A stretch of DNA of 40,712 nt from Gemmatimonadota bacterium (GTDB taxonomy: Bacteria > Gemmatimonadota > Gemmatimonadetes > Gemmatimonadales > Gemmatimonadaceae), in assembly GCA_027622655.1 (NCBI GenBank), contig JAQBYI010000028.1, positions 1 to 40,712 on the forward strand, read 5' to 3'. The notes under the pieces are model-generated. The model was given only the letters and a program-made list of their open reading frames with translations, made no database searches and was not told where the DNA came from. The position numbers and the translations under genes were made by a program. Each line of letters starts with the position of its first letter. Within the stretch, counting starts at the first letter, position 1. Positions 28,684-40,646 of the stretch are shown in pieces.

Positions 28684-30630
28684 TTAACACGACACGCACT
28701 TGTGACTGTTCTTTGAACCCAGTCGTTCGAGCAACGCCACCGTTTCGAGGTACGGCGAAATTCGCTGCACTGGCCCGTTCGCCATGTCTGCCGTCGTCTG
28801 CCCCGAGCGGGCGACCGCCTTGACGTCGGCACCTTTCGAAACGAGATAGTTGATGAGATCGTTGTCGCCGCGTGCGGCGGCAAAATGGAGAGCAGTGAAA
28901 CCGTTGGGATCGCGCGCGTTCACGTCGGCGCCAAGTTCCTCGACAAGAAACCTCACCGCCGAAACCCAGCTGTCGGGTGCGTGCCGGTGATCGTTCGCGG
29001 CGAATCCCTGCCCGTACCCTACCCCGGCCGCGGCCACGATGGCGGGAATGCCGGGACCGCCGGCTTGGATCGGCGGAAGTCCTGACGGGTCGAGGCGGAC
29101 CGGAACGTCCGCGCCACCGTCGGGACCAACGGTTCCGCTTCCGGCCGCACCATCACTTCCGCGGCCACCCCGTCCACCTCGAGCGCGCACCGGCTCGCGA
29201 ATTGTCGCGATCTTCGGGTCGGCGCCGCGCGCGAGGAGCAGCTTCATTGCCGGAATGTCCGTCGCGTACGCCGCGCGCCAGAACGGGGTCGCGCCGTTGA
29301 AGTCCACACGCAGGTTGTCACGGTTGTAGGTGGTGTACCAGAGGCTACTCTTGAGCCGCGCGTTCGGGTCGGCCTTGGCGGCGAGCAGCGCTTCCATCAA
29401 TTCCATGTACGAAGTCTGCTGCTGGAGATTGAACGTCGGCTGAGGCGTGCGCGACGTGGGTGCCCACTCCTTGTTGATCACGGCGTAAAGCGGCGTGGCG
29501 CCCGCATTGCTCGCAAGGTTGGGATCCGCGTTGCGGGCCACCAGCATCTTCGCGATGTCGTAGTGCCCGTTGATCGTCGCGAGGAGCAGCGGTGTCGTGC
29601 TGTCCGCGGCGCTGGCTTGATCGATGTTTGCGCCGCCGTCGAGCAGTGCACGTACAGTTTCGGTGTGGCCGTCACGAATGGCGAGCATCAAAGCGGTCAG
29701 GCCGCCCTGAACGCCCACCAGCGCGGTGTAGCCCGGAGGATCGGTGTCGCCCGCGTTGCCCGCGGCTACGGCGGCGCGCGCCGTGTCCTCTGCCGAATCA
29801 GCGGCTGCCGAAGCTACGTCGCCCGTACTCGCGCGTTCGAGCGTGAGTGCGGCGCGCACCGCCTGCTGAACCTGCTGCGCGTCGGGATGCCAGCCGACGA
29901 CCGTGTCGGCGCCCTGCGCCTTGCGAAGCTGGCCCAGCACCTCGTTCCGGCGCTGACGAGTGACGCGATCCTGCGCCTCGAGCGCAACGAGGTCCACGAC
30001 CTTCGCAGTTGCGGCAGCGTTGGCGCCACGCGCAAGCAGCACGCGCACGGCTTCGGTTCGCCCCCGCGCGGCGGCGAACATCAATGGCGTATGACCCCAC
30101 GCGGGCTCCATGACGTTCGCATTCGCGCCACGTTCGAGCAGTTGCCGCACCGCGTCGGCATTGCCGGAGAGAGAGGCCAGGTGCAGTGCCGTCACTCCGG
30201 TCGAGTTCGGCGTAGCGAAGTCGGCGCCGCCTTTCAGCAGAGCGGCTACCACCTGCGCGTGCCCGTTTTCCGCCGCCAGATGGAGCGGGGTCAGCGCGCC
30301 GATCCGCGTTGTCGCCGAGTGGCGTGCCTTGGATTTCAAAAGAAACGCAGTCAGCTCGGTGTCACCGTTGCGTGCGGCCCAGTGCAAAGCGGTCATGCCG
30401 TCGCCCTGTGCTTCGTTCACGTCGGCGCCCTTGCTCACAAGCGCGCGTACGGCCGCTGCGTCGCGTCGTTGCGCAGCGTTGGCCACCGTTGAGCTCACCG
30501 ATGTCGGCTGACGTGTCGGCGGCGGCGCCGACGCCGGTACGTGCAACGGCGCCGCCGGCCGCGCACCGGCCAACAATGCCGCGGCCGCGAACGCCGCACC
30601 CAATCGGGTCACCCGGTTCGCGACGCTCAC
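28684..30630 (-). CDS. Secreted ankyrin-repeat protein
   Basis: A 648-residue protein. The N terminus (RVTRLGAAFAAAALLAGARP) is a signal peptide. From residue ~50 there are about nine ankyrin repeats in two blocks, for example GMTALHWAARNGDTELTAFL, TPLHLAAENGHAQVVAALL and GFTALHFAAARGDNDLINYL. The blocks are separated by an Ala-rich linker (about 235-300), and a Gly/Arg-rich insert (about 500-540) sits before the last repeats. It ends in the cysteine pair KCVSC. Ankyrin repeats bind proteins. The start GTG 30630 overlaps the DUF1552 gene by four bases (GTGA), so it is coupled to that gene and likely works at the cell surface with the DUF1552 and DUF1592 proteins. Confidence 0.9.
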   Translation of the reverse strand: MSVANRVTRLGAAFAAAALLAGARPAAPLHVPASAPPPTRQPTSVSSTVANAAQRRDAAAVRALVSKGADVNEAQGDGMTALHWAARNGDTELTAFLLKSKARHSATTRIGALTPLHLAAENGHAQVVAALLKGGADFATPNSTGVTALHLASLSGNADAVRQLLERGANANVMEPAWGHTPLMFAAARGRTEAVRVLLARGANAAATAKVVDLVALEAQDRVTRQRRNEVLGQLRKAQGADTVVGWHPDAQQVQQAVRAALTLERASTGDVASAAADSAEDTARAAVAAGNAGDTDPPGYTALVGVQGGLTALMLAIRDGHTETVRALLDGGANIDQASAADSTTPLLLATINGHYDIAKMLVARNADPNLASNAGATPLYAVINKEWAPTSRTPQPTFNLQQQTSYMELMEALLAAKADPNARLKSSLWYTTYNRDNLRVDFNGATPFWRAAYATDIPAMKLLLARGADPKIATIREPVRARGGRGGRGSDGAAGSGTVGPDGGADVPVRLDPSGLPPIQAGGPGIPAIVAAAGVGYGQGFAANDHRHAPDSWVSAVRFLVEELGADVNARDPNGFTALHFAAARGDNDLINYLVSKGADVKAVARSGQTTADMANGPVQRISPYLETVALLERLGSKNSHKCVSC

Positions 30631-32003
30631 AGCGAAAACTCTCCGGTGCTGTCGCCGAAGCTCTGCAGGTCATCGTGGCCGAGCCGATGGAGCATCGTGA
30701 GCATCGCGTTCGCCATCGGAGTCGCATCGGGCGCCTTGAGGTGCATGTTGCCGGCCAGCTGGCCGTTTGCGCCCCCGAGAAATATCAGCGGGCAACGGCG
30801 GTGGTTGTGCACGTTGCTGTCGGCCATTGGCGAGCCGAACATCACCAGCGTCTTGTCGAGCAGCGGTGATTCACCGTCCATCGTCGAATTCAGCCGCTCC
30901 ATCAGGTACGGGAGCATTCCGACGTGGTATTTGTTGATCTCATAGAATTCGGAAACGCGCTTCGGGTTGTTGCCATGGTGCGACGCGTTGTGAAACCCCG
31001 TCGAAACTCCGCTCTCGGGGAATACGCGCCCGGACGCATCGCGCCCAGTCTTCAGCGTGAACACGCGGGTCGTGTCGGCTTCGAACGCGAGCACCTGCAG
31101 GTCGAACATCAGCTTGATGTGTTCCTCGTACGAATCGGGTACGCCCGTCGGCGCGGCCGCAAGCTCGCGCGGCTCACCGCTGTTGTTCCGGGCCTCCGTG
31201 CGCTGGATGCGGCGTTCGATTTCGCGCACGTTCTCCAGGTACTGCTCCATACGGCGTCGGTCCGCAGCGCCAAGCTCGCGTTGCAAGTCGGCCACGCGTC
31301 CGGTAATGAAATCGAGAATGCTCCCCGTCGTACGCCGCCGGGCCGTTCGCTCGGCCACCGTTCCGCCGGCGCCGAAAAGCTGATCGAAGGCGACCCGCGG
31401 GTCACGAATCATCGGCAGCGGTTCGGTGGGCGACGCCCAACTGATCAGGTCGGTGTACGCGCACGAGTAGCCGTACGCACAGCCGCCGGCACGATCGATG
31501 GGTTCGATGCAGAGCTGCATGGAGGGAATCGGCGTCGCCTGGCCGAAGCGCTGCGCATGGAGCTGGTCGAACGACGTGCCGACGAAGATGTCAGAGCTTT
31601 CGGTCTGCGTCGGATGCGCCTGGGTAAGAAAGACGGCGCTCGACCGGAAGTGATCGCCGCCGATCTCCTCAGACTTGTATGCCTCGGCCATGCGCACGTC
31701 GGTGTTGCTCACAATCGTCAGGTGCTTTCGCCACGGCTCCAACGGGAGCAGCGCTGAGGGCGTGAGGTCGAAATCGCTGCCTATCGCCGACGGGGCCCAG
31801 AAGTTCTGCGTCGCGCCGTACGGACTGCTTCCGGCAGCTCCATGCACCGCTTCAATGCATATCAGGCGCGTGGGGTCGTTCGCTTCCGCGAACCGCATCA
31901 ACCCGCGGACGGGGATCATCGCGTCGAGCATTGGCAGTGCGACTGTCGCACCCATGCCGCGGAGGAATGTGCGTCGCGGAAGCTCTTTCCCTGGAATCAG
32001 CAT
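30627..32003 (-). CDS. DUF1552 protein with Tat signal
   Basis: A 458-residue protein of the DUF1552 family, common in Planctomycetota, Acidobacteriota and relatives. It has a twin-arginine signal (PRRTFLRGMGATVALPMLDA). Family features include ICIEAVHGAAGSSPYGATQN, SCAYTDLISWASPTEPLPM, VFTLKTGRDASGRVFPESGV, TGFHNASHHG and LLDKTLVMFGSPMADSNVHN. The last shares alkaline-phosphatase or sulfatase-like residues with DUF1501 proteins. The activity is unknown. Tat export implies folding in the cytoplasm, often with a cofactor. ATG 32003 with the upstream diheme gene ending 29 bases away; it overlaps the ankyrin gene downstream. The three form one operon. Confidence 0.92.
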   Translation of the reverse strand: MLIPGKELPRRTFLRGMGATVALPMLDAMIPVRGLMRFAEANDPTRLICIEAVHGAAGSSPYGATQNFWAPSAIGSDFDLTPSALLPLEPWRKHLTIVSNTDVRMAEAYKSEEIGGDHFRSSAVFLTQAHPTQTESSDIFVGTSFDQLHAQRFGQATPIPSMQLCIEPIDRAGGCAYGYSCAYTDLISWASPTEPLPMIRDPRVAFDQLFGAGGTVAERTARRRTTGSILDFITGRVADLQRELGAADRRRMEQYLENVREIERRIQRTEARNNSGEPRELAAAPTGVPDSYEEHIKLMFDLQVLAFEADTTRVFTLKTGRDASGRVFPESGVSTGFHNASHHGNNPKRVSEFYEINKYHVGMLPYLMERLNSTMDGESPLLDKTLVMFGSPMADSNVHNHRRCPLIFLGGANGQLAGNMHLKAPDATPMANAMLTMLHRLGHDDLQSFGDSTGEFSL

Positions 32004-32031
32004 GCGTCGGTTGCCGGTGTGCGGAGGTGGT

Positions 32032-34494
32032 TCATCGTTCGGGCTCGGCAGCGGCTTCGTTCCGCCGCATCGTGAACGCTGCGCTGTTCACGACGCCGAG
32101 CACGTACGACGAGAGGCGATGATTCTGTTTCTCAGCGGTCCGGACGATCGTGCGCACGGCCGGCATGTCGAAGTACTCAACCCGGCGTCCTAGTCCGTAC
32201 GCCATCAGGTTCTGGGTGAACGTGCGTAGCAGTGTTTCCTTGTGCTCAAGCAGGGCGCGGCGCAGATCGGTTGGGCTGGCTACCGGCGTGCCATCCCAGA
32301 GTTCACCGCGCGGATCAATGGGCATCCCATTGTCGCGCACACGCCACCGGCCCGTGACATCGTAGTGCTCGAGTGCGAGCCCAATCGGGTCCATCATCTT
32401 GTGGCACGACTGGCAAGCCGGGCTGCGGCGGTGCTCTTCCATCCGTTCGCGCACGGTCAGCAGCTGGCCGTCACGCGAGTCGGCAGTGGCTTCGAGGTCA
32501 GGCACACCGGGCGGCGGTGGCGGCGGCGGACTGTTGAGCAGGACTTCCATCACCCACTTGCCGCGCTCGACAGCCGATGTGCGCGTGGCCTGCGACGTCA
32601 AAGTCAAAACGCTCGCGTGCGCGAGCAGTCCGCGGCGATTCGGGTCGGTTTGCGGCACGCGACGGAACTGGTTGCCGGCAACACCGGCTATTCCATAGTG
32701 CGCGGCGAGCCGCTCATTCACAAACGTGTAGTCGGCATTGAACAGTTCGAGGACGCTGCGGTCCTCGCGCACGATGTACTCAACCAGCAACTCGGTCTCG
32801 CGGTGCATGGCACTTCGGAGCTGCTCGTCGAAGTTCGGGTACTGGCGCACGTCAGGCTGGACCGCATCGAGGTCGGCCAATCGCAGCCACTGGCTGGCAA
32901 ACCTCGTGGCGAGGGTCGCCGCGCGCGGGTCGGCCAGCATGCGGGCGACCTGTCCGTTGAGCACTGAGCGGTCGGCGAGCTTGCCCTGACTTCCGAGCGT
33001 CACCAGTTCGTGGTCGGGTGGCGCGGCCCAGATGAAGAATGCGAGGCGCGACGCCAGATCTGTTCCGCCGACCCGGACGTTTTCGCCTTCAGTCTCGGGC
33101 GCCGTTGGGCGTTCGAAGCGGAACACGAAGTCAGGACTCGCGAGCGTCGCCGTGAGTGCCGTTCGCACGCCGGCCTCGAACCCGCCGGTCGCAGCGCCGA
33201 TATCGTACAACTCCATCAGCGGATCAACTTCCCGATCAGAAATGGGGCGCCGGTACGCTGACGCAGCGAGGCGTGTGACGATCGATCGGGCGCATTGGCG
33301 CGACACATCGGCCGACGCGCCAGCCGGAGGCCTGCAGGTGAAAATCCGACGTCGCGTAGGATTGTCGGACACGCCGGTCGGATTCGTGGGCCCGGCGATG
33401 ACCAGGTCGCGCAGGTGCGGAACGGATGAAAAGCCGTACGCAGTGGCGTTCGACGTGCTGGCGAGCGACCACGCCAGTGGCGAGATCAGATCCTGCAACA
33501 CGTCCTGGGACACGGGCGGAATGAACGCGGCCGAAACGCGATGTGGTCCTGCCGTGATGCGCACCGGCTCCGTTGCCATCGATACGCCGTTCGGGTCGGA
33601 CGCCGTCATCCAGCGATCCATGTCGAGCACGGCCACGCGGCTGCCGTCAACCGACAGCTCAACCTGCTCGCTACGCGCATTGCCGCCGGCGAAAGCGCCC
33701 GTCGTCTCGTGATAGAAGAAGAGGCGAAAAACGTATTCGCCATCGGCGGCAAACGTGTGCACAACCGAAACGCCGCCGCGCGTACCGATGGGCGCGCCTT
33801 CCACGTGGTCGGTCTGCGATGCCGTGCGCGGGACCGTGAACGTCGCCGCCGACGGCGTTACCTGCGGATTTCCCACTGCGCGCCAGCTGATGTCACTTGC
33901 GGCCCGCAAATACGCGTCGAGAAGCGTGGGCGAGAGAAGCTGCGCGTCGGCGATGTTGTCGAAATTCTCGCTCTTTGTATCGAGCGGCAGCCAATCCGCG
34001 GCGTCAATCTCGAGGCCGATGAGGTCGCGCACCGCCGCCGAGTATTCTGCGCGGTTCAGTCGCTGAAACGTGCGGGCGCCCGGATTGGGGTTCGCGCGCG
34101 CGTCGGCGTCAAGCTGGTTCTCGAGTGTTTCAATGATCGCGGCGAGTGTGTCCGCGCTCGGACGGGCCTGCCCGGGCGGCGGCATCATCCCCGTGCGGAG
34201 CTTCGCGATGACATTTTCGGCCATCTCGGGCGACTTGGTCGGCGCCGATACGTCAAAGTGCTCGAGCGACAGATTGCCGCGACGCACTCTGTCGCTATGG
34301 CAACGCTGACAGCTGCGCCGGATGACGTCGTTGAGTTCCGCAGCCGGTATTGGGGACGCGCGATGAACACGCGCCGGAACGGCGTGGACGCCCTCGTTGG
34401 TCAGGACAGCGGGCGCCGCGTCAGCGGCTGGGCCGATGGCGCGGAACGCAGAAATGAGTCCGACCGTGGTCGCCAACGCAGCGAGTGTCTTCAC
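32032..34494 (-). CDS. Diheme DUF1587/1592/1588/1585-type secreted protein
   Basis: An 820-residue exported protein with the planctomycete-type domain series DUF1587, DUF1595, DUF1592, DUF1588 and DUF1585. Two CxxCH heme sites are present: C62-Q-R-C-H66 (RRSCQRCHSDRVRRG) near the N terminus and C694-Q-S-C-H698 (PACQSCHKMMDPIGLALEHY) near the C terminus. Family landmarks include RLNRAEYSAAVRDLIGLEID, LASRLAFFIWAAPPDHEL and VNERLAAHYGIAGVAGNQFR. The middle (about 230-340) holds a carbohydrate-binding-like beta domain. The start is GTG 34494 with AGGGG six bases upstream, followed by a signal peptide. It leads an operon with the DUF1552 and ankyrin genes. Function is unknown; an electron-transfer enzyme for polymer or lipid attack is inference. 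Confidence 0.92.
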   Translation of the reverse strand: MKTLAALATTVGLISAFRAIGPAADAAPAVLTNEGVHAVPARVHRASPIPAAELNDVIRRSCQRCHSDRVRRGNLSLEHFDVSAPTKSPEMAENVIAKLRTGMMPPPGQARPSADTLAAIIETLENQLDADARANPNPGARTFQRLNRAEYSAAVRDLIGLEIDAADWLPLDTKSENFDNIADAQLLSPTLLDAYLRAASDISWRAVGNPQVTPSAATFTVPRTASQTDHVEGAPIGTRGGVSVVHTFAADGEYVFRLFFYHETTGAFAGGNARSEQVELSVDGSRVAVLDMDRWMTASDPNGVSMATEPVRITAGPHRVSAAFIPPVSQDVLQDLISPLAWSLASTSNATAYGFSSVPHLRDLVIAGPTNPTGVSDNPTRRRIFTCRPPAGASADVSRQCARSIVTRLAASAYRRPISDREVDPLMELYDIGAATGGFEAGVRTALTATLASPDFVFRFERPTAPETEGENVRVGGTDLASRLAFFIWAAPPDHELVTLGSQGKLADRSVLNGQVARMLADPRAATLATRFASQWLRLADLDAVQPDVRQYPNFDEQLRSAMHRETELLVEYIVREDRSVLELFNADYTFVNERLAAHYGIAGVAGNQFRRVPQTDPNRRGLLAHASVLTLTSQATRTSAVERGKWVMEVLLNSPPPPPPPGVPDLEATADSRDGQLLTVRERMEEHRRSPACQSCHKMMDPIGLALEHYDVTGRWRVRDNGMPIDPRGELWDGTPVASPTDLRRALLEHKETLLRTFTQNLMAYGLGRRVEYFDMPAVRTIVRTAEKQNHRLSSYVLGVVNSAAFTMRRNEAAAEPER

Positions 34495-35146: not shown

Positions 35147-35575
35147 TCAGCCGGTGATGAGTTGTGCGTCCACGGTTGAGGGTACCGCGGACAGGGCGCG
35201 CGCAATGATACAGCCGACTCTGGTCTCCTCGGCGAACTTCGCAAACTCCTCAGCCGAGAGGCCGGGCACGTCGCCGCGGGTCACGAGGTCGATACCGGAA
35301 ATCGAGAAGCCTGCGTTGCCTTTCGTGATGTGGACGGTGGCGGTCGTGGACACGCTCTTGGGCGAGTGGCCCGCCTTGCCCAGGCTAGCCGAGAGCGCCA
35401 TCGAGTAGCACGCTGCGTGGGCAGCACCGAGGAGTTCTTCCGGGTTGGTGCCGGCGCCGTGTTCAAATCGGCTGAGAAATGAGTACGGACCGTCGAACGA
35501 TCCGCTTTCGAGTTTGACCGTTCCCGTGCCGGTCTTGAGATCTCCGTCCCAACGTGCGTCTGCGCGACGATCCAT
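35147..35575 (-). CDS. osmC: OsmC-family peroxiredoxin
   Basis: A 142-residue thiol peroxidase of the OsmC type, which reduces organic and fatty-acid hydroperoxides. The two catalytic cysteines are C56 (HAACYSMALSASLG) and C122 (EETRVGCIIARALS), with the conserved Glu in GTNPEELLGAAHAA and Arg in SFLSRFEHG. Length and motifs match OsmC (wDGDLKTGTGTV near the N terminus). ATG 35575. Upstream on the same strand, 119 bases away, lies the AhpD-like selenoprotein frame. OsmC-type enzymes need a dithiol reductant, and AhpD-like proteins provide one in some bacteria, so the neighbourhood makes biochemical sense. Confidence 0.92.
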   Translation of the reverse strand: MDRRADARWDGDLKTGTGTVKLESGSFDGPYSFLSRFEHGAGTNPEELLGAAHAACYSMALSASLGKAGHSPKSVSTTATVHITKGNAGFSISGIDLVTRGDVPGLSAEEFAKFAEETRVGCIIARALSAVPSTVDAQLITG

Positions 35576-35694: not shown

Positions 35695-36139
35695 TCACGG
35701 CGCCGTGCCGCCAGTCTCGAGTTCTACCCCGAGTCCGTCGGCAATCCGGTTCACGAACGCGAAGTAGCTCACGATGGCACATGCGTCGTGGATGGCCACG
35801 TCGTCGAGTCCGGCATCGCGCAGTTTCGCGATGTCGCCCGCGCCAATGGATGCCGGGTCACTCGTTAGTCGCTCCGCGTAGTCGAGGAGTGCACGCTCGC
35901 GCGCGCTGAGCGCACTCGGCCGCGTATCACCATGTTCGAGCGCCGTCAGGAGCGCGTCCTGCGCCGGCGGTTCCATTCCCTCTGCTTCGAAAATGAGACG
36001 GAGACCCGCTCCGTGATGGTGGATTCAATAACGGCACTTGTTGAGCGCCGACACCCGCAGCGCCATCACCTCACGTTCGCGGCGGCTGAGAGGTCCTGGC
36101 GCGTGCATCAGTTCGCGATAGAGAGCGTAGTGTGAACAG
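35695..36139 (-). pseudogene. AhpD-like (CMD family) selenoprotein with in-frame TGA, 5'-truncated by IS481-type element
   Basis: Read on the minus strand, one frame runs from the IS edge at 36139 through an in-frame TGA (36027-36025) to the stop at 35697-35695. Before the TGA it reads HYALYRELMHAPGPLSRRER and then ALRVSALNKCRY; after it, IHHHGAGLRLIFEAEG, MEPPAQDALLTALEHG and AIVSYFAFVNRIADGLG. This is one continuous AhpD-like/carboxymuconolactone-decarboxylase protein. In the family the motif is CxYC followed by HHG, so the TGA stands exactly at the second redox cysteine, giving CxxU. A SECIS-like hairpin follows the TGA. About 50 residues expected at the N terminus are missing; the frame upstream enters the IS end. 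No matching 5' part is visible on the far side of the IS. It may be dead, or start at an internal ATG (ELM). A sequencing error in TGC/TGT is the alternative. Confidence 0.8.
35998..36014 (-). promoter_or_regulatory. Bacterial SECIS-like hairpin after the in-frame TGA
   Basis: ACGGAG and CTCCGT form a perfect six-base-pair stem around the loop CGGGT. It starts ten bases after the TGA on the minus strand. The E. coli fdhF SECIS mini-hairpin starts eleven bases after its UGA and shows a G-G-U loop, so spacing, size and loop agree. SelB binding is inference. Confidence 0.7.
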
Positions 36140-36181
36140 CCGGGGAGATGGGTGACAGAACGTCCGGGGACATAGCTAACA
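36140..36181 (+). repeat. Left inverted repeat of the IS481-type element (double motif)
   Basis: CCGGGGAGATGGGTGACA and CCGGGGACATAGCTAACA, separated by six bases, mirror the two motifs at the right end. Confidence 0.8.
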
Positions 36182-37345
36182 CTTTTTCTTCTGAGAAGGT
36201 GCCCCGGTGATGAGGTGGGTGCGCTCGTCGAAGCGACCGAGCAGGGTGTCATAGTAGATGATGTTCCAGAGCCCGTCTTGCACCTCCTCGAGGCCGATGT
36301 AGTCGTCGTTGAGCGCTTGGCTCAGGAAGTGCTGGCCAGAATGCAGGCGGAACGTACCGGCACTGCTGACGCGCCGCACGGCGAAGTGGCCAGGATACTC
36401 TGGGGGCGCAATGCGCTCGGGGTACGGGCGGGGCGAAGGGCGCCAGCGTGATGCCGGTGTTTCGTCGTCGAGGGCTTCATGTGGCCGGATCTCATTGTAG
36501 GTACGCTGGAAGGTGTTGAAGACGCGCTGCTGCACGCAGAGATTCGCGGCCGCCGGTCGGATCGCGCGCGCCTTGAGCGTGCGGTGGAGCCGTTCATGCG
36601 CGCCGTTCTCCTGCGGACTCCCGGGTGTGATGCGTTGGTGTGTGATGCCGAGCTGCAGCCACCACACGTTAAGGCGGTTGAGCCCGTGAATCCCCGTCGA
36701 GGCAAAGGGCGAACCGTTGTCACTGCGAATCGCCTCGGGCAAGCCCCACCGCCGAAAGAGCTGGCGGAGGAGGGGCTTTACCCCGGCGCCCTTCACGTCC
36801 AGCAGGCCGTGGCAACAGAGCAGGAAGCGACTGAAGTGATCGATGACCGTCAGGGGATAGCAGTAGACCCGGTTCTGCGTCCGGAACTGCCCCTTGAAGT
36901 CGATCGTCCAAATCTGGTTCGGCGCGGTCGTGACGGCAGGCACCGTGCCCGGGTGCTTCCACTTGGTACGCCGGCGCCGATGTCGCACGCGATCGTGGCG
37001 CTCGAGGATGTCGAAGATTGTGCTCCGGGCCGGCCACTCACGCGTCGCGTCGCGCGTGCGGAGCCGCTTCAGAATCTTGCGGGCGCCCCAGCCATAGCGG
37101 GAATGCTCACGCAGAATGAGCTCCACGACGTCGGCTGGCGTTGCGTGTGGCGACGACCGCGGCGCGCGACTCTGGTCATGCAACCCGCGCACGCCCTGCG
37201 TCGCATATCGATGCGCCCAGGTGTAGTCGGTGTTGCGGCTGACGCCGTATCGTTCACACAGTTCGGTCATCGTCCATTGACCGCTCTCCAGATCTTGCAC
37301 AAAATGGTGACGTTCCAGCACGGGATTGGTCTCCTGCCAAGGCAT
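36176..37345 (-). CDS. IS481-family transposase
   Basis: A 389-residue DDE transposase that appears intact. The N-terminal helix-turn-helix has QWTMTELCERYGVSRNTDYT, followed by RYGWGARKILKRLR. The integrase core has the catalytic acids in IWTIDFKGQF, AIRSDNGSPFAS and SPQENGAHERLHRTLK, in the usual D-D-35-E order. The C terminus is the family beta-rich domain (GTFRLHSGQHFLSQALNDDY). ATG 37345 is chosen because GGAGGAG sits directly upstream; an ATG twelve codons earlier lacks this. It is the only gene of the element at 36140-37416. Confidence 0.93.
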   Translation of the reverse strand: MPWQETNPVLERHHFVQDLESGQWTMTELCERYGVSRNTDYTWAHRYATQGVRGLHDQSRAPRSSPHATPADVVELILREHSRYGWGARKILKRLRTRDATREWPARSTIFDILERHDRVRHRRRRTKWKHPGTVPAVTTAPNQIWTIDFKGQFRTQNRVYCYPLTVIDHFSRFLLCCHGLLDVKGAGVKPLLRQLFRRWGLPEAIRSDNGSPFASTGIHGLNRLNVWWLQLGITHQRITPGSPQENGAHERLHRTLKARAIRPAAANLCVQQRVFNTFQRTYNEIRPHEALDDETPASRWRPSPRPYPERIAPPEYPGHFAVRRVSSAGTFRLHSGQHFLSQALNDDYIGLEEVQDGLWNIIYYDTLLGRFDERTHLITGAPSQKKKC

Positions 37346-37375
37346 CACTCCTCCACCCAGAAGGGGTTGAAGAAG

Positions 37376-37416
37376 TGTCACCCATGTCGCCGGACACCTG
37401 TCACCTATGTCCCCGG
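37376..37416 (-). repeat. Right inverted repeat of the IS481-type element (double motif)
   Basis: TGTCACCCATGTCGCCGG and TGTCACCTATGTCCCCGG, separated by five bases, are the reverse complement of the left-end motifs with few mismatches. Transposase binding to these is expected. Confidence 0.8.
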
Positions 37417-37504
37417 GTTGTACCAGGCTGCTGACTAACCGGCGGTCCAGGCGAACGAAGGGTACACGCTGCGAAGAGCCAGGCGTTGCCGCTCGTGCAC
37501 TGAT

Positions 37505-38722
37505 TTACGTAGCCTGGTAACGCCGCGCGACGTAGTCCTCAAGAATCGCGAGAAACTCCGGCACGATAGAGTCACCTTTCAGCGTTACGTGCAGCGCTCC
37601 GTCGATGTACACGGGGGCTTTGGGTTCCTCGAATGTCCCCGGAAGCGAAATGCCAATGTTCGCGTGCTTGCTTTCGCCCGGCCCGTTTACGACGCACCCC
37701 ATGACGGCGACATTCATCTCTTCGACGCCGGGGTGACGATCGCGCCACAGCGGCATCTGGACGCGAAGATATTCCTGAATGTCTTCTGCCATTTTCTGAA
37801 AAAAAGTGCTCGTGGTACGCCCGCAACCGGGACACGCGCTCACCTGTGGAGTAAAGCTCCGAAGTCCGAGCGACTGCAGTACTTGCTGAGCGATGAGCAC
37901 TTCTTCCGTCCGATCACCGCCGGGTCGCGGGGTCAGCGATACTCTGATCGTGTCGCCAATGCCCTCGGCCAGGATGAGCGACAACGCCGCTGTCGTGGCA
38001 ACGGTGCCCTTCATTCCGAGCCCTGCTTCGGTCAGTCCGAGATGCAGCGGGTAGTCGCAACGCACTGCGAGCCGTCGATAGCAATCGAGCAGGTCCTGCA
38101 CTTGCGAAATTTTCGCAGAAACCACGATCCGGTCGTGAGCAAGCCCGGTCTCTTCCGCGAGCAACGCCGATCGAAGGGCGCTTTCGATCATTGCTTCCAT
38201 GTACACATGCTTGGCGTCGAGCGGCTCGGCCGCGGTCGCGTTGGCATCCATCATCGATGTCAATAGATCCTGATCAAGCGATCCCCAGTTCACACCGATT
38301 CGTACCGGCCGATCGTGGTCAACTGCCACCTTGATAATCGTCTGGAAATTTTCGTCGCGATGCCGAGTCCCGACGTTGCCGGGGTTGATCCTGTACTTCG
38401 CCAGCGCAGATGCACACGCCGGGTGGCGAACGAGCAACAGATGGCCGTTGTAGTGGAAGTCGCCAATAATCGGGGTGTCGACGCCGGCATCCGCACACCG
38501 CGCGACGATTTCCGGTACTGCGCTCGCAGCTTCATCGTTGTTTACCGTAATACGGACGAGCTGCGAGCCGGCGGTTGCGAGCGCGATGACCTGCGCAGCC
38601 GTCGCCGCGGCATCGGCTGTGTCAGTATTCGTCATCGACTGGACGACGATGGGTGCAGATGATCCGATCGACACCGGTCCGATTCGGGCCGTGACGGTTT
38701 GACGGCGTGGTTTGAAAATCAC
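37505..38722 (-). CDS. ispG: 4-hydroxy-3-methylbut-2-en-1-yl diphosphate synthase (IspG/GcpE)
   Basis: A 405-residue enzyme of the MEP isoprenoid pathway. It uses a 4Fe-4S cluster to reduce the cyclic diphosphate to HMBPP. Visible features are [20 protein letters not shown] near the N terminus, [46 protein letters not shown], and the cluster cysteines in [12 protein letters not shown] and [20 protein letters not shown]. It is the short, single-barrel bacterial form. The start GTG 38722 leads into the family region; AAGGAG lies twelve bases upstream, a little far. It sits alone between two insertion sequences, and both IS ends lie outside the gene. Confidence 0.95.
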
Positions 38723-39108
38723 GAAACGAGCGTTCTCCTTGAAGATCGGGAAAGCGGTAGAAGCATAACTTGAAGTCGGAAGCTTCTGGGGGGACGGGAA
38801 ACGCACTTGGCATTGGCGGGCGCGCCAAACGAACGGAATTTTCCGTCGCAATCAGGCGTCCGTTTAGTCCCGCTCGGAGCCTGTTCGAGGTACGGGATCT
38901 GTGGTCGAACAACCTCTTGCACATCGGAACTGGAGGGCCTAGCTTCGACTCCGATGCGGAGTCAGGGTGTGTGGATATTCAGGCCTTTCAACCGCATCGG
39001 CCCAAGGCGGGGGCCCATGTGAAGTCCGCGCAACAGATTGTCCTGTCAGGGTACGGCGTGTCCCGCTCCCGGCGACAATCAACTACACACCCTCTCTGCC
39101 AATATGAG
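38723..39108. other. Spacer upstream of ispG, with a small hairpin
   Basis: I see no gene in these ~390 bases. Positions 38947-38963 form a perfect hairpin (GACTCCG, loop ATG, CGGAGTC), of unknown role. The ispG promoter should lie near 38730-38850, but no clear elements can be named. The IS3-type element begins at 39109. Confidence 0.4.
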
Positions 39109-39162: not shown

Positions 39163-39585
39163 ATGTCGTCGTTGTCTCTTGCTTCCAGGCCAGTGCTCGC
39201 ACACGATGTTGGGGTGTCGCCCGCCCGTGACCGCCGCCGGTTCACCACCGCGTTCAAGCTGCAGATCCTCGAGGAGGCGGCCCGTTGCGTCGCGCCCGGC
39301 ACGCTCGGCGCGCTGCTGCGCCGGGAAGGGTTGTACTCGTCGCACCTGAGCGTGTGGCGGGCGGCGGCGAAGCGCGGGGAGTTGACCGGCCCCGCGCGGC
39401 GCCGTGGCCCGAAACAGACGCCGCCGGATCCGCGCACGCAGCGGATCCTCGTGCTGGAACGCGCGCTCGCCAAGGCCACCGCGCGCGCCGAGCACGCTGA
39501 GGCGTTGGTGGAACTCCAAAAAAAAGTGGCCGAGTTGCTCGGCCGAACACTCCCGACGGCCGACGGGCCGAACGGAGCACGCTGA
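39163..39585 (+). CDS. IS3-family transposase OrfA
   Basis: A 140-residue protein with the helix-turn-helix of IS3 OrfA (DRRRFTTAFKLQILEEAARC, then LGALLRREGLYSSHLSVW) and a C-terminal leucine-zipper-like helix (ERALAKATARAEHAEALVEL). The ATG at 39163 has GAGGA seven bases upstream; GTG 39145 is an in-frame alternative. It contains a run of eight A at 39518-39525 near its end, and the OrfB frame is open from there, so a -1 frameshift can make an OrfAB fusion. The stop TGA overlaps the orfB start (TGATG). Confidence 0.88.
   Translation: MSSLSLASRPVLAHDVGVSPARDRRRFTTAFKLQILEEAARCVAPGTLGALLRREGLYSSHLSVWRAAAKRGELTGPARRRGPKQTPPDPRTQRILVLERALAKATARAEHAEALVELQKKVAELLGRTLPTADGPNGAR
39518..39526 (+). 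other. A8G slippery sequence for programmed -1 frameshifting
   Basis: Eight A followed by G lie about 60 bases before the orfA stop. The OrfB frame is the -1 frame and has no stop from 39519 to the orfB ATG, so slippage would give the full transposase, as in other IS3 elements. Confidence 0.65.
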
Positions 39586-40646
39586 TGGCCGCCGTCCAGA
39601 CCCGCGGCGCCCCACTGCGCGTGCGTCCGGCCTGCCGCGCGCTTGGGGTCGCGCCGGCCACGTACTATCGGCATCAACAACCGGCGGTGTTGGGGCCGTG
39701 GCCCCGCCGGCACGCGCCCCGTGCGCTGACCGTGGCCGAACACCAGACCGTGCTCGACGTGCTGCACGCGCCCCGTGCGCTGACCGTGGCCGAACACCAG
39801 ACCGTGCTCGACGTGCTGCACGCGCCCCGCTTCCTCGATCTGGCACCCGCCCAAGTCTACGCCACGCTGCTCGACGAGGGCACGTATCACTGCGCCGAAC
39901 GCACGATGTACCGGGTGCTCGCCGCCCAGGGCGAAGGTCGCGAGCGGCGCGCCCAACGCCGCGGGCCGATCTACGCGGCGCCCGAGTTGCTCGCCACCGC
40001 CCCCAACCAGCTCTGGAGCTGGGACATTACGAAGCTCAAGGGCCCGGCGAAGTGGACGTACTTCTACCTCTACGTCGTGCTCGACGTGTTCAGCCGCTAC
40101 GTCGTGGGCTGGATGGTCGCGCGGCGCGAAGCCGCCGCGCTCGCGGAACACCTCATCGCGACCAGTTGCACGCGACAGGACATCCGCCCCGCCCAGCTCA
40201 CGATCCACGCCGATCGCGGATCCTCGATGACGTCGAAGCCGGTCGCGCTGCTCTTGGCCGATCTCGGCGTCACGAAAACGCACTCCCGCCCCTCGGTGTC
40301 GAACGACAATCCGTACTCCGAGGCCCAGTTCAAAACGCTCAAGTACCGGCCGGACTTTCCCAACCGCTTTGGTTCCCTCGAGCACGCGCGCGTGCACGGC
40401 AATGATTTCTTTCCGTGGTACAACACCGAGCACCGGCACTCGGGGCTCGGGCTCCACACGCCGCACGATGTGCATTACGGCCTCGCGGAAGCGCGCCGCG
40501 CCCAGCGGGCCACGGTCCTCACGGCCGCGTACATCGCGCGGCCGGACCGCTTCGTCCGACACCACCCCGTACCCGCCGCACTTCCGACGGCGGCGTGGAT
40601 CAATCCACCCAAACTCCTGGTCGCGTCACAGGACGCTGCTCAGTAA
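39585..40646 (+). CDS. IS3-family transposase OrfB (DDE), with internal 18-residue duplication
   Basis: A 353-residue transposase catalytic subunit. The integrase core holds the acids in LWSWDITKLKGPAKW, TIHADRGSSMTS and NPYSEAQFKTLKYRP, the D-D-35-E set, with the IS3 ending HRHSGLGLHTPHDVHYG. The N-terminal part has the Orf-typical CRALGVAPATYYRHQ. A perfect 54-base tandem duplication at 39711-39818 repeats 18 residues (RALTVAEHQTVLDVLHAP) in frame; homologs are expected to have one copy. Whether the duplicated form is active is unknown. It starts at the ATG overlapping the orfA stop and is also reachable by -1 frameshift. Confidence 0.9.
   Translation: MAAVQTRGAPLRVRPACRALGVAPATYYRHQQPAVLGPWPRRHAPRALTVAEHQTVLDVLHAPRALTVAEHQTVLDVLHAPRFLDLAPAQVYATLLDEGTYHCAERTMYRVLAAQGEGRERRAQRRGPIYAAPELLATAPNQLWSWDITKLKGPAKWTYFYLYVVLDVFSRYVVGWMVARREAAALAEHLIATSCTRQDIRPAQLTIHADRGSSMTSKPVALLLADLGVTKTHSRPSVSNDNPYSEAQFKTLKYRPDFPNRFGSLEHARVHGNDFFPWYNTEHRHSGLGLHTPHDVHYGLAEARRAQRATVLTAAYIARPDRFVRHHPVPAALPTAAWINPPKLLVASQDAAQ
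39711..39818 (+). repeat. Perfect 54-base tandem duplication in orfB
   Basis: Two identical 54-base copies (39711-39764 and 39765-39818), followed by eleven bases of a third, keep the orfB frame. A recent slippage event, or an assembly artefact, would look like this. Confidence 0.9.

Follow-up and report, generated by a model that had tools for sequence, protein, structure and literature searches.

The window, the whole 40,712-nt stretch of DNA analysed here, carries on its minus strand part of a gene for an AhpD-like protein, interrupted by an in-frame TGA codon and bounded on its 5' side by an insertion sequence of the IS481 family (Table 1). The frame passing through 36144 reads PGCSHYALYRELMHAPGPLSRREREVMALRVSALNKCRY-TGA-IHHHGAGLRLIFEAEG...GLGVELETGGTAP-TGA. 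Around the internal TGA (36027-36025) it runs ...SALNKCRY-TGA-IHHHGAGL... in a single phase, and the next stop is the TGA at 35697-35695. An earlier sequence-only reading had placed the frames on either side of the TGA in the same phase, and this is correct (CRYU-IHHHG, one continuous frame). The range given there, 36139-35695, comprises 445 nt and translation from 36139 is out of frame; the correct frame goes through 36144 and 36138. The remaining 145 codons form an open frame in which, according to the alignment, all invariant core residues are kept.

Table 1. Features of the AhpD-like locus, in window coordinates
Feature	Position	Strand	Basis or remark
OsmC-family peroxiredoxin gene, ordinary Cys enzyme	35147..35575	-	119 nt downstream of the AhpD-like gene
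Retained part of the AhpD-like (TIGR01926) selenoprotein gene, conserved His codon (HYALY) to TGA stop	35695..36132	-	one in-frame Sec TGA
Fusion frame from an ATG inside the IS, 185 aa	35695..36252	-	IS-derived N terminus and AhpD core, Sec at residue 76
Predicted bacterial SECIS hairpin ACGGAG-CGGGU-CUCCGU	35998..36014	-	11-27 nt past the TGA
In-frame TGA, predicted selenocysteine codon, second position of CxxU	36025..36027	-	frame, homologue mapping, alignment
TGC, partner Cys of the CRYU motif	36034..36036	-	frame, homologue mapping
IS481-family insertion sequence	36133..37424	-	approximate ends, set by comparison with other copies
IS481-family transposase, LZ_Tnp_IS481 and integrase core domains	36176..37381	-	profile search
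ispG (presumed), chromosomal gene across the IS from the AhpD-like gene	37505..38851	-	

The gene across the insertion sequence is presumably ispG, a name given from knowledge of the sequence and not from a family search. It shows up to 90% identity to same-genus copies over the C-terminal 200 residues, and the OsmC gene shows 71-76% identity to its nearest same-genus copies, indicating that both sides of the element belong to the same lineage. One same-genus genome (G001) contains a second ispG copy, 63% identical, on contig C112 (L188). The OsmC-family peroxiredoxin fits a peroxide-related context; in the relatives examined this gene does not adjoin an AhpD-like gene, and therefore no operon is claimed. 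Elsewhere in the window, an exact tandem repeat of a 54-bp unit (2.2 copies, 39710-39829) lies in frame within an ORF (39585-40646) that resembles a transposase gene, close to the end of the contig, and at 28684-34494 a large ankyrin-repeat protein gene adjoins two genes that, judged by eye, resemble a DUF1552/DUF1592-type pair.

Family assignment and the predicted selenocysteine codon

With the TGA read as a residue, the product scores 103.1 bits against the TIGR01926 profile (peroxidase-related enzyme; curated cut-off 81.8), aligned to profile positions 47-173 of 178, and also matches Pfam CMD in the profile search; membership in the AhpD-like family, claimed by the sequence-only reading, is thus borne out. 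The fold is known from solved relatives, e.g., 2oyo, 2pfx and 6k40, and the AhpD-like chain 2ijc, of about 145 aa, covers the same core (query 15-141). The proton relay of AhpD from Mycobacterium tuberculosis and of PA0269 from Pseudomonas aeruginosa consists of Glu, Cys, His/Tyr, Cys and His (PMC3141380), and the window gene has E25, C37, Y39, U40 and H44 (P0002 numbering) at the AhpD spacing. By analogy with the family, the intact enzyme probably carried out peroxide reduction or electron relay.

The 3.14-Mb genome holding the window, assembled in 115 contigs, contains a full tRNA-Sec gene, selC (79.2 bits, anticodon TCA). Adjoining it is an ORF that we take, from reading it and without a family search, to be selD. 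Also encoded are selB (328 bits in the joined frame, above the cut-off) and selA (528 bits), so that all four genes that the sequence-only reading had named for a search are accounted for. selA occurs in 16 of the 18 genomes of the genus, and none of those with a completeness of 90% or more and a contamination of 5% or less lacks it; this indicates a lineage trait and not contamination. Two more AhpD-like CxxU genes with one TGA each, both with an apparently intact 5' end, are located on contigs C92 (L010, RCRYUIDAHAEFL) and C67 (L011, DCPFUVKSHAAVA) of the same genome.

The equivalent codon was mapped in relatives that came from 149 related genomes and from scanning GTDB genomes, and Cys homologues from plasmids were fetched as controls. 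Among 112 mapped rows, with the window and the two paralogs from its genome counted in, TGA was found in 108 and TGC or TGT in four. Of the Cys rows, L015 was wrongly mapped to an unrelated locus, and L026 and L081 represent one and the same gene; of the genuine rows, 108 of 111 have TGA. The homologues with TGA come from many phyla, and the earlier suggestion to look for Cys or Sec at this position is answered by Sec in most homologues and Cys rarely. Since the frame beyond the TGA continues the same AhpD-like protein and the TGA is conserved in homologues, its occurrence is not due to chance. Judging from these sequence comparisons, the in-frame TGA is almost certainly the selenocysteine codon of an AhpD-like antioxidant protein. 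The proposal of the sequence-only reading that this TGA encodes selenocysteine is strongly supported, for the second position of CxxC, by the decoding machinery, the TGA homologues and the conserved hairpin described below.

The hairpin downstream of the TGA

Positions 11-16 after the TGA pair with positions 22-27, forming a 6-bp stem closed by the 5-nt loop CGGGU. The apical loop starts after a 16-nt spacing and has G at its second position. The bSECIS model constrains the loop, the stem, the position of the G and the spacing, and it limits the free energy to at most -7.5 kcal/mol (PMC13188914); the window hairpin conforms to the four structural rules (PMC13188914), and its energy, -7.3 kcal/mol for 33 nt and -8 for 51 nt, is at the edge of the limit, which counts against the interpretation proposed below. 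The energy of the window hairpin alone is not lower than that of shuffled sequences (z 0.43). Because such single-sequence folding is uninformative, covariation and synonymous-codon shuffles were used.

The HHx subfamily forms all six pairs in 40 of its 56 distinct TGA sequences and the HAEFL subfamily in all of its 14, while the fully paired hairpin occurs in none of ten Cys homologues. At the same hairpin site the base pairs differ between the two TGA subfamilies, and pair 14-24 occurs as the compensatory types G-C, A-T and C-G. In synonymous-codon shuffles, based on pooled codon use and uncorrected for the shared ancestry of the sequences, a mean of 0.7 of the 56 HHx sequences were fully paired (maximum 5 in 1000 shuffles), and a mean of 0.4 of the 14 HAEFL sequences (maximum 3). 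Under such shuffling, full pairing has a chance of 1.5% for the window taken by itself. A scan of the window at Rfam gathering thresholds gave no match.

A third subfamily, HAHDL, lacks the hairpin at positions 11-27; in almost all of its 34 sequences GACCTC/GAGGTC pairing is possible at positions 19-36. The loci with this shifted SECIS-like hairpin are L034, L035 and most of L085-L126.

The junction with the IS481-family element

The transposase matches Pfam LZ_Tnp_IS481, rve and rve_3 above cut-off, and its best NCBIfam model is IS481, with 215.4 bits just below the cut-off of 224. The element has inverted repeats near its termini and is multicopy in the genome, with identical ends; other copies are located at contig ends. 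Its right end abuts the AhpD-like gene at the conserved His of 'HYxLY', at about codon 38 of the family. Intact relatives begin MAFIRY...DPDNIIQIHAVHPAVMRQ before HYxLY, with the general N-terminal pattern MAFI..DNIIQIHxVHPxxMR, and in the window IS sequence stands in that place up to the His codon. Compared with the homologue L050, which has Sec at residue 73, the window keeps the codons from residue 38 on, and about 37 codons are missing. A complete TIGR01926-type N-terminal segment is therefore absent, and a search for it elsewhere in the genome matched only weak paralogs; a functional protein may thus not be produced from this copy. The earlier view of an intact gene merely overlooked by gene calling is not supported, because the first ~37 codons are missing at the IS481 boundary.

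No target duplication was found at the flanks of the window's own element. Two other copies, with flanks paired by reading across the element, share the 3-bp repeats CTC and TTC. In these pairs, C62 is joined with C72 in what by eye is presumably a helicase-like frame, and C33 with C22 in a presumably aminotransferase-like one. In the five relatives inspected, a convergent HD-type gene, with a start read by eye as GYSDRINHA(L/F)AFAAKHHD, lies downstream of ispG; in the window (37425-37505) the element is reached within about 80 bp past ispG. A 75-residue query from one relative gave only a weak match in the window genome, to a long different frame, and there was no convincing match when the ispG-downstream regions of the relatives were compared with the window and with the contigs that end in the IS. 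That neither a target duplication nor the HD-type gene was found suggests, as the simplest account, that an IS-linked deletion took place between ispG and the AhpD-like gene.

The tree groups the window gene in a clade of nine members (support 100/98), which are Acidobacteriota and Gemmatimonadota sequences apart from one labelled as a planctomycete. The same-genus genomes yielded, above the threshold used, only C92-type paralogs (HAEFL) and not the window gene; the gene may thus have been gained by transfer or lost repeatedly.

Interpretation and relation to known systems

An ordinary stop codon or a nonsense mutation at the TGA, with a dead fragment downstream, would accord with a gene already damaged at its 5' end. 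This is very improbable given that TGA occupies the same codon in homologues of many phyla, that compensating changes preserve the hairpin and that the genome has the full Sec machinery. With selenocysteine accepted, the truncated copy could still be expressed as a shortened selenoprotein, translated either from within the element, as the 185-aa fusion frame, or from an internal ATG. The open frame, Sec codon, hairpin and invariant core residues are all preserved, AhpD-like chains of ~145 aa such as 2ijc cover the same core, and the catalytic two-helix hairpin is self-contained and has been described as structurally independent (PMC3141380). However, the lost segment DNIIQIHxVHP is well conserved in the subfamily, the native start is gone, the start in the element lies inside the transposase gene in another frame, and a recent pseudogene, too, would be expected to keep 145 codons open; expression of this kind appears unlikely. 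Less likely still is that the IS481 event made a new expressed selenoprotein, a minimal working Sec AhpD core with its start within the element and the conserved N-terminal segment dropped.

The junction itself might be an assembly artefact in which different IS copies were joined, the intact gene being present in the organism or in a sister strain. The multiple copies of the element, which elsewhere break contigs, and the absence of a common target duplication at its two flanks in the window are consistent with such an error, and the draft assembly joins these flanks across a 1.3-kb repeat, so that the junction may be misassembled on its ispG side. The boundary between the IS end and the AhpD-like gene, however, is local and within the span of short reads, so at least one copy of the element should really abut the gene; moreover, the missing N terminus was found on no contig of the genome, and the other left-flank contigs (C39, C83, C62 and C33) do not carry it beside the element. 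An artefact of this kind is accordingly unlikely.

The window most probably holds the C-terminal four-fifths of an AhpD-like (TIGR01926) selenoprotein gene that lost its 5' part through an IS481-family event and is now most likely a recent pseudogene, although the 145-codon open frame and invariant core residues would also fit a gene that is still expressed. In the ancestral intact gene, SelB and tRNA-Sec would have inserted selenocysteine at the UGA under the direction of the hairpin starting 11 nt downstream, and the CxxU redox centre most likely reduced peroxides or acted as a thiol-selenol relay. Through the IS481-family event, most likely an insertion and then a deletion or a recombination between IS copies, the gene would have lost its native start along with its first ~37 codons, and it would remain as a presumed pseudogene that still bears the Sec codon and the SECIS.

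Gene callers treating TGA as a stop would split AhpD-like CxxU genes, as the window gene is split. An insertion sequence can cut a selenoprotein gene and yet leave its Sec codon and SECIS intact, and therefore a TGA-split gene can be both a true selenoprotein gene and damaged. The covariation and synonymous-codon analyses add evidence for Sec-encoded AhpD-like CxxU proteins in Gemmatimonadota, Acidobacteriota, Planctomycetota, Chloroflexota and other phyla.

Publications of 2005 and 2008 described selenoproteins of the AhpD-like CxxU type, and a review from 2026 tabulates TIGR01926 with this motif (PMC13188914; PMC1088965; PMC2398784). TIGR01926 CxxU is thus already catalogued as a bacterial selenoprotein family, of which the window gene is a further, IS-damaged member. 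Membership of NCBIfam NF041238 (AhpD_rel_CFYUT), the alkylhydroperoxidase-related (seleno)proteins, was rejected: this family likewise comprises a related AhpD domain with Sec forms, but the window gene, at 61.9 bits, is far below its cut-off of 175. M. tuberculosis AhpD and P. aeruginosa PA0269 share with the window gene the spacing of the relay residues, which in the window gene are Glu, Cys, Tyr, Sec and His, the TGA being the equivalent of Cys133 of M. tuberculosis AhpD (residue roles according to PMC3141380); both are Cys enzymes needing no SECIS, whereas the window gene has Sec for the second catalytic Cys. The closest resemblance is to the TIGR01926 selenoproteins, which have the same CxxU motif, UGA at the second Cys and a SECIS-like hairpin directly downstream. 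The window copy differs from them in having an IS481 terminus in place of the 5' part.
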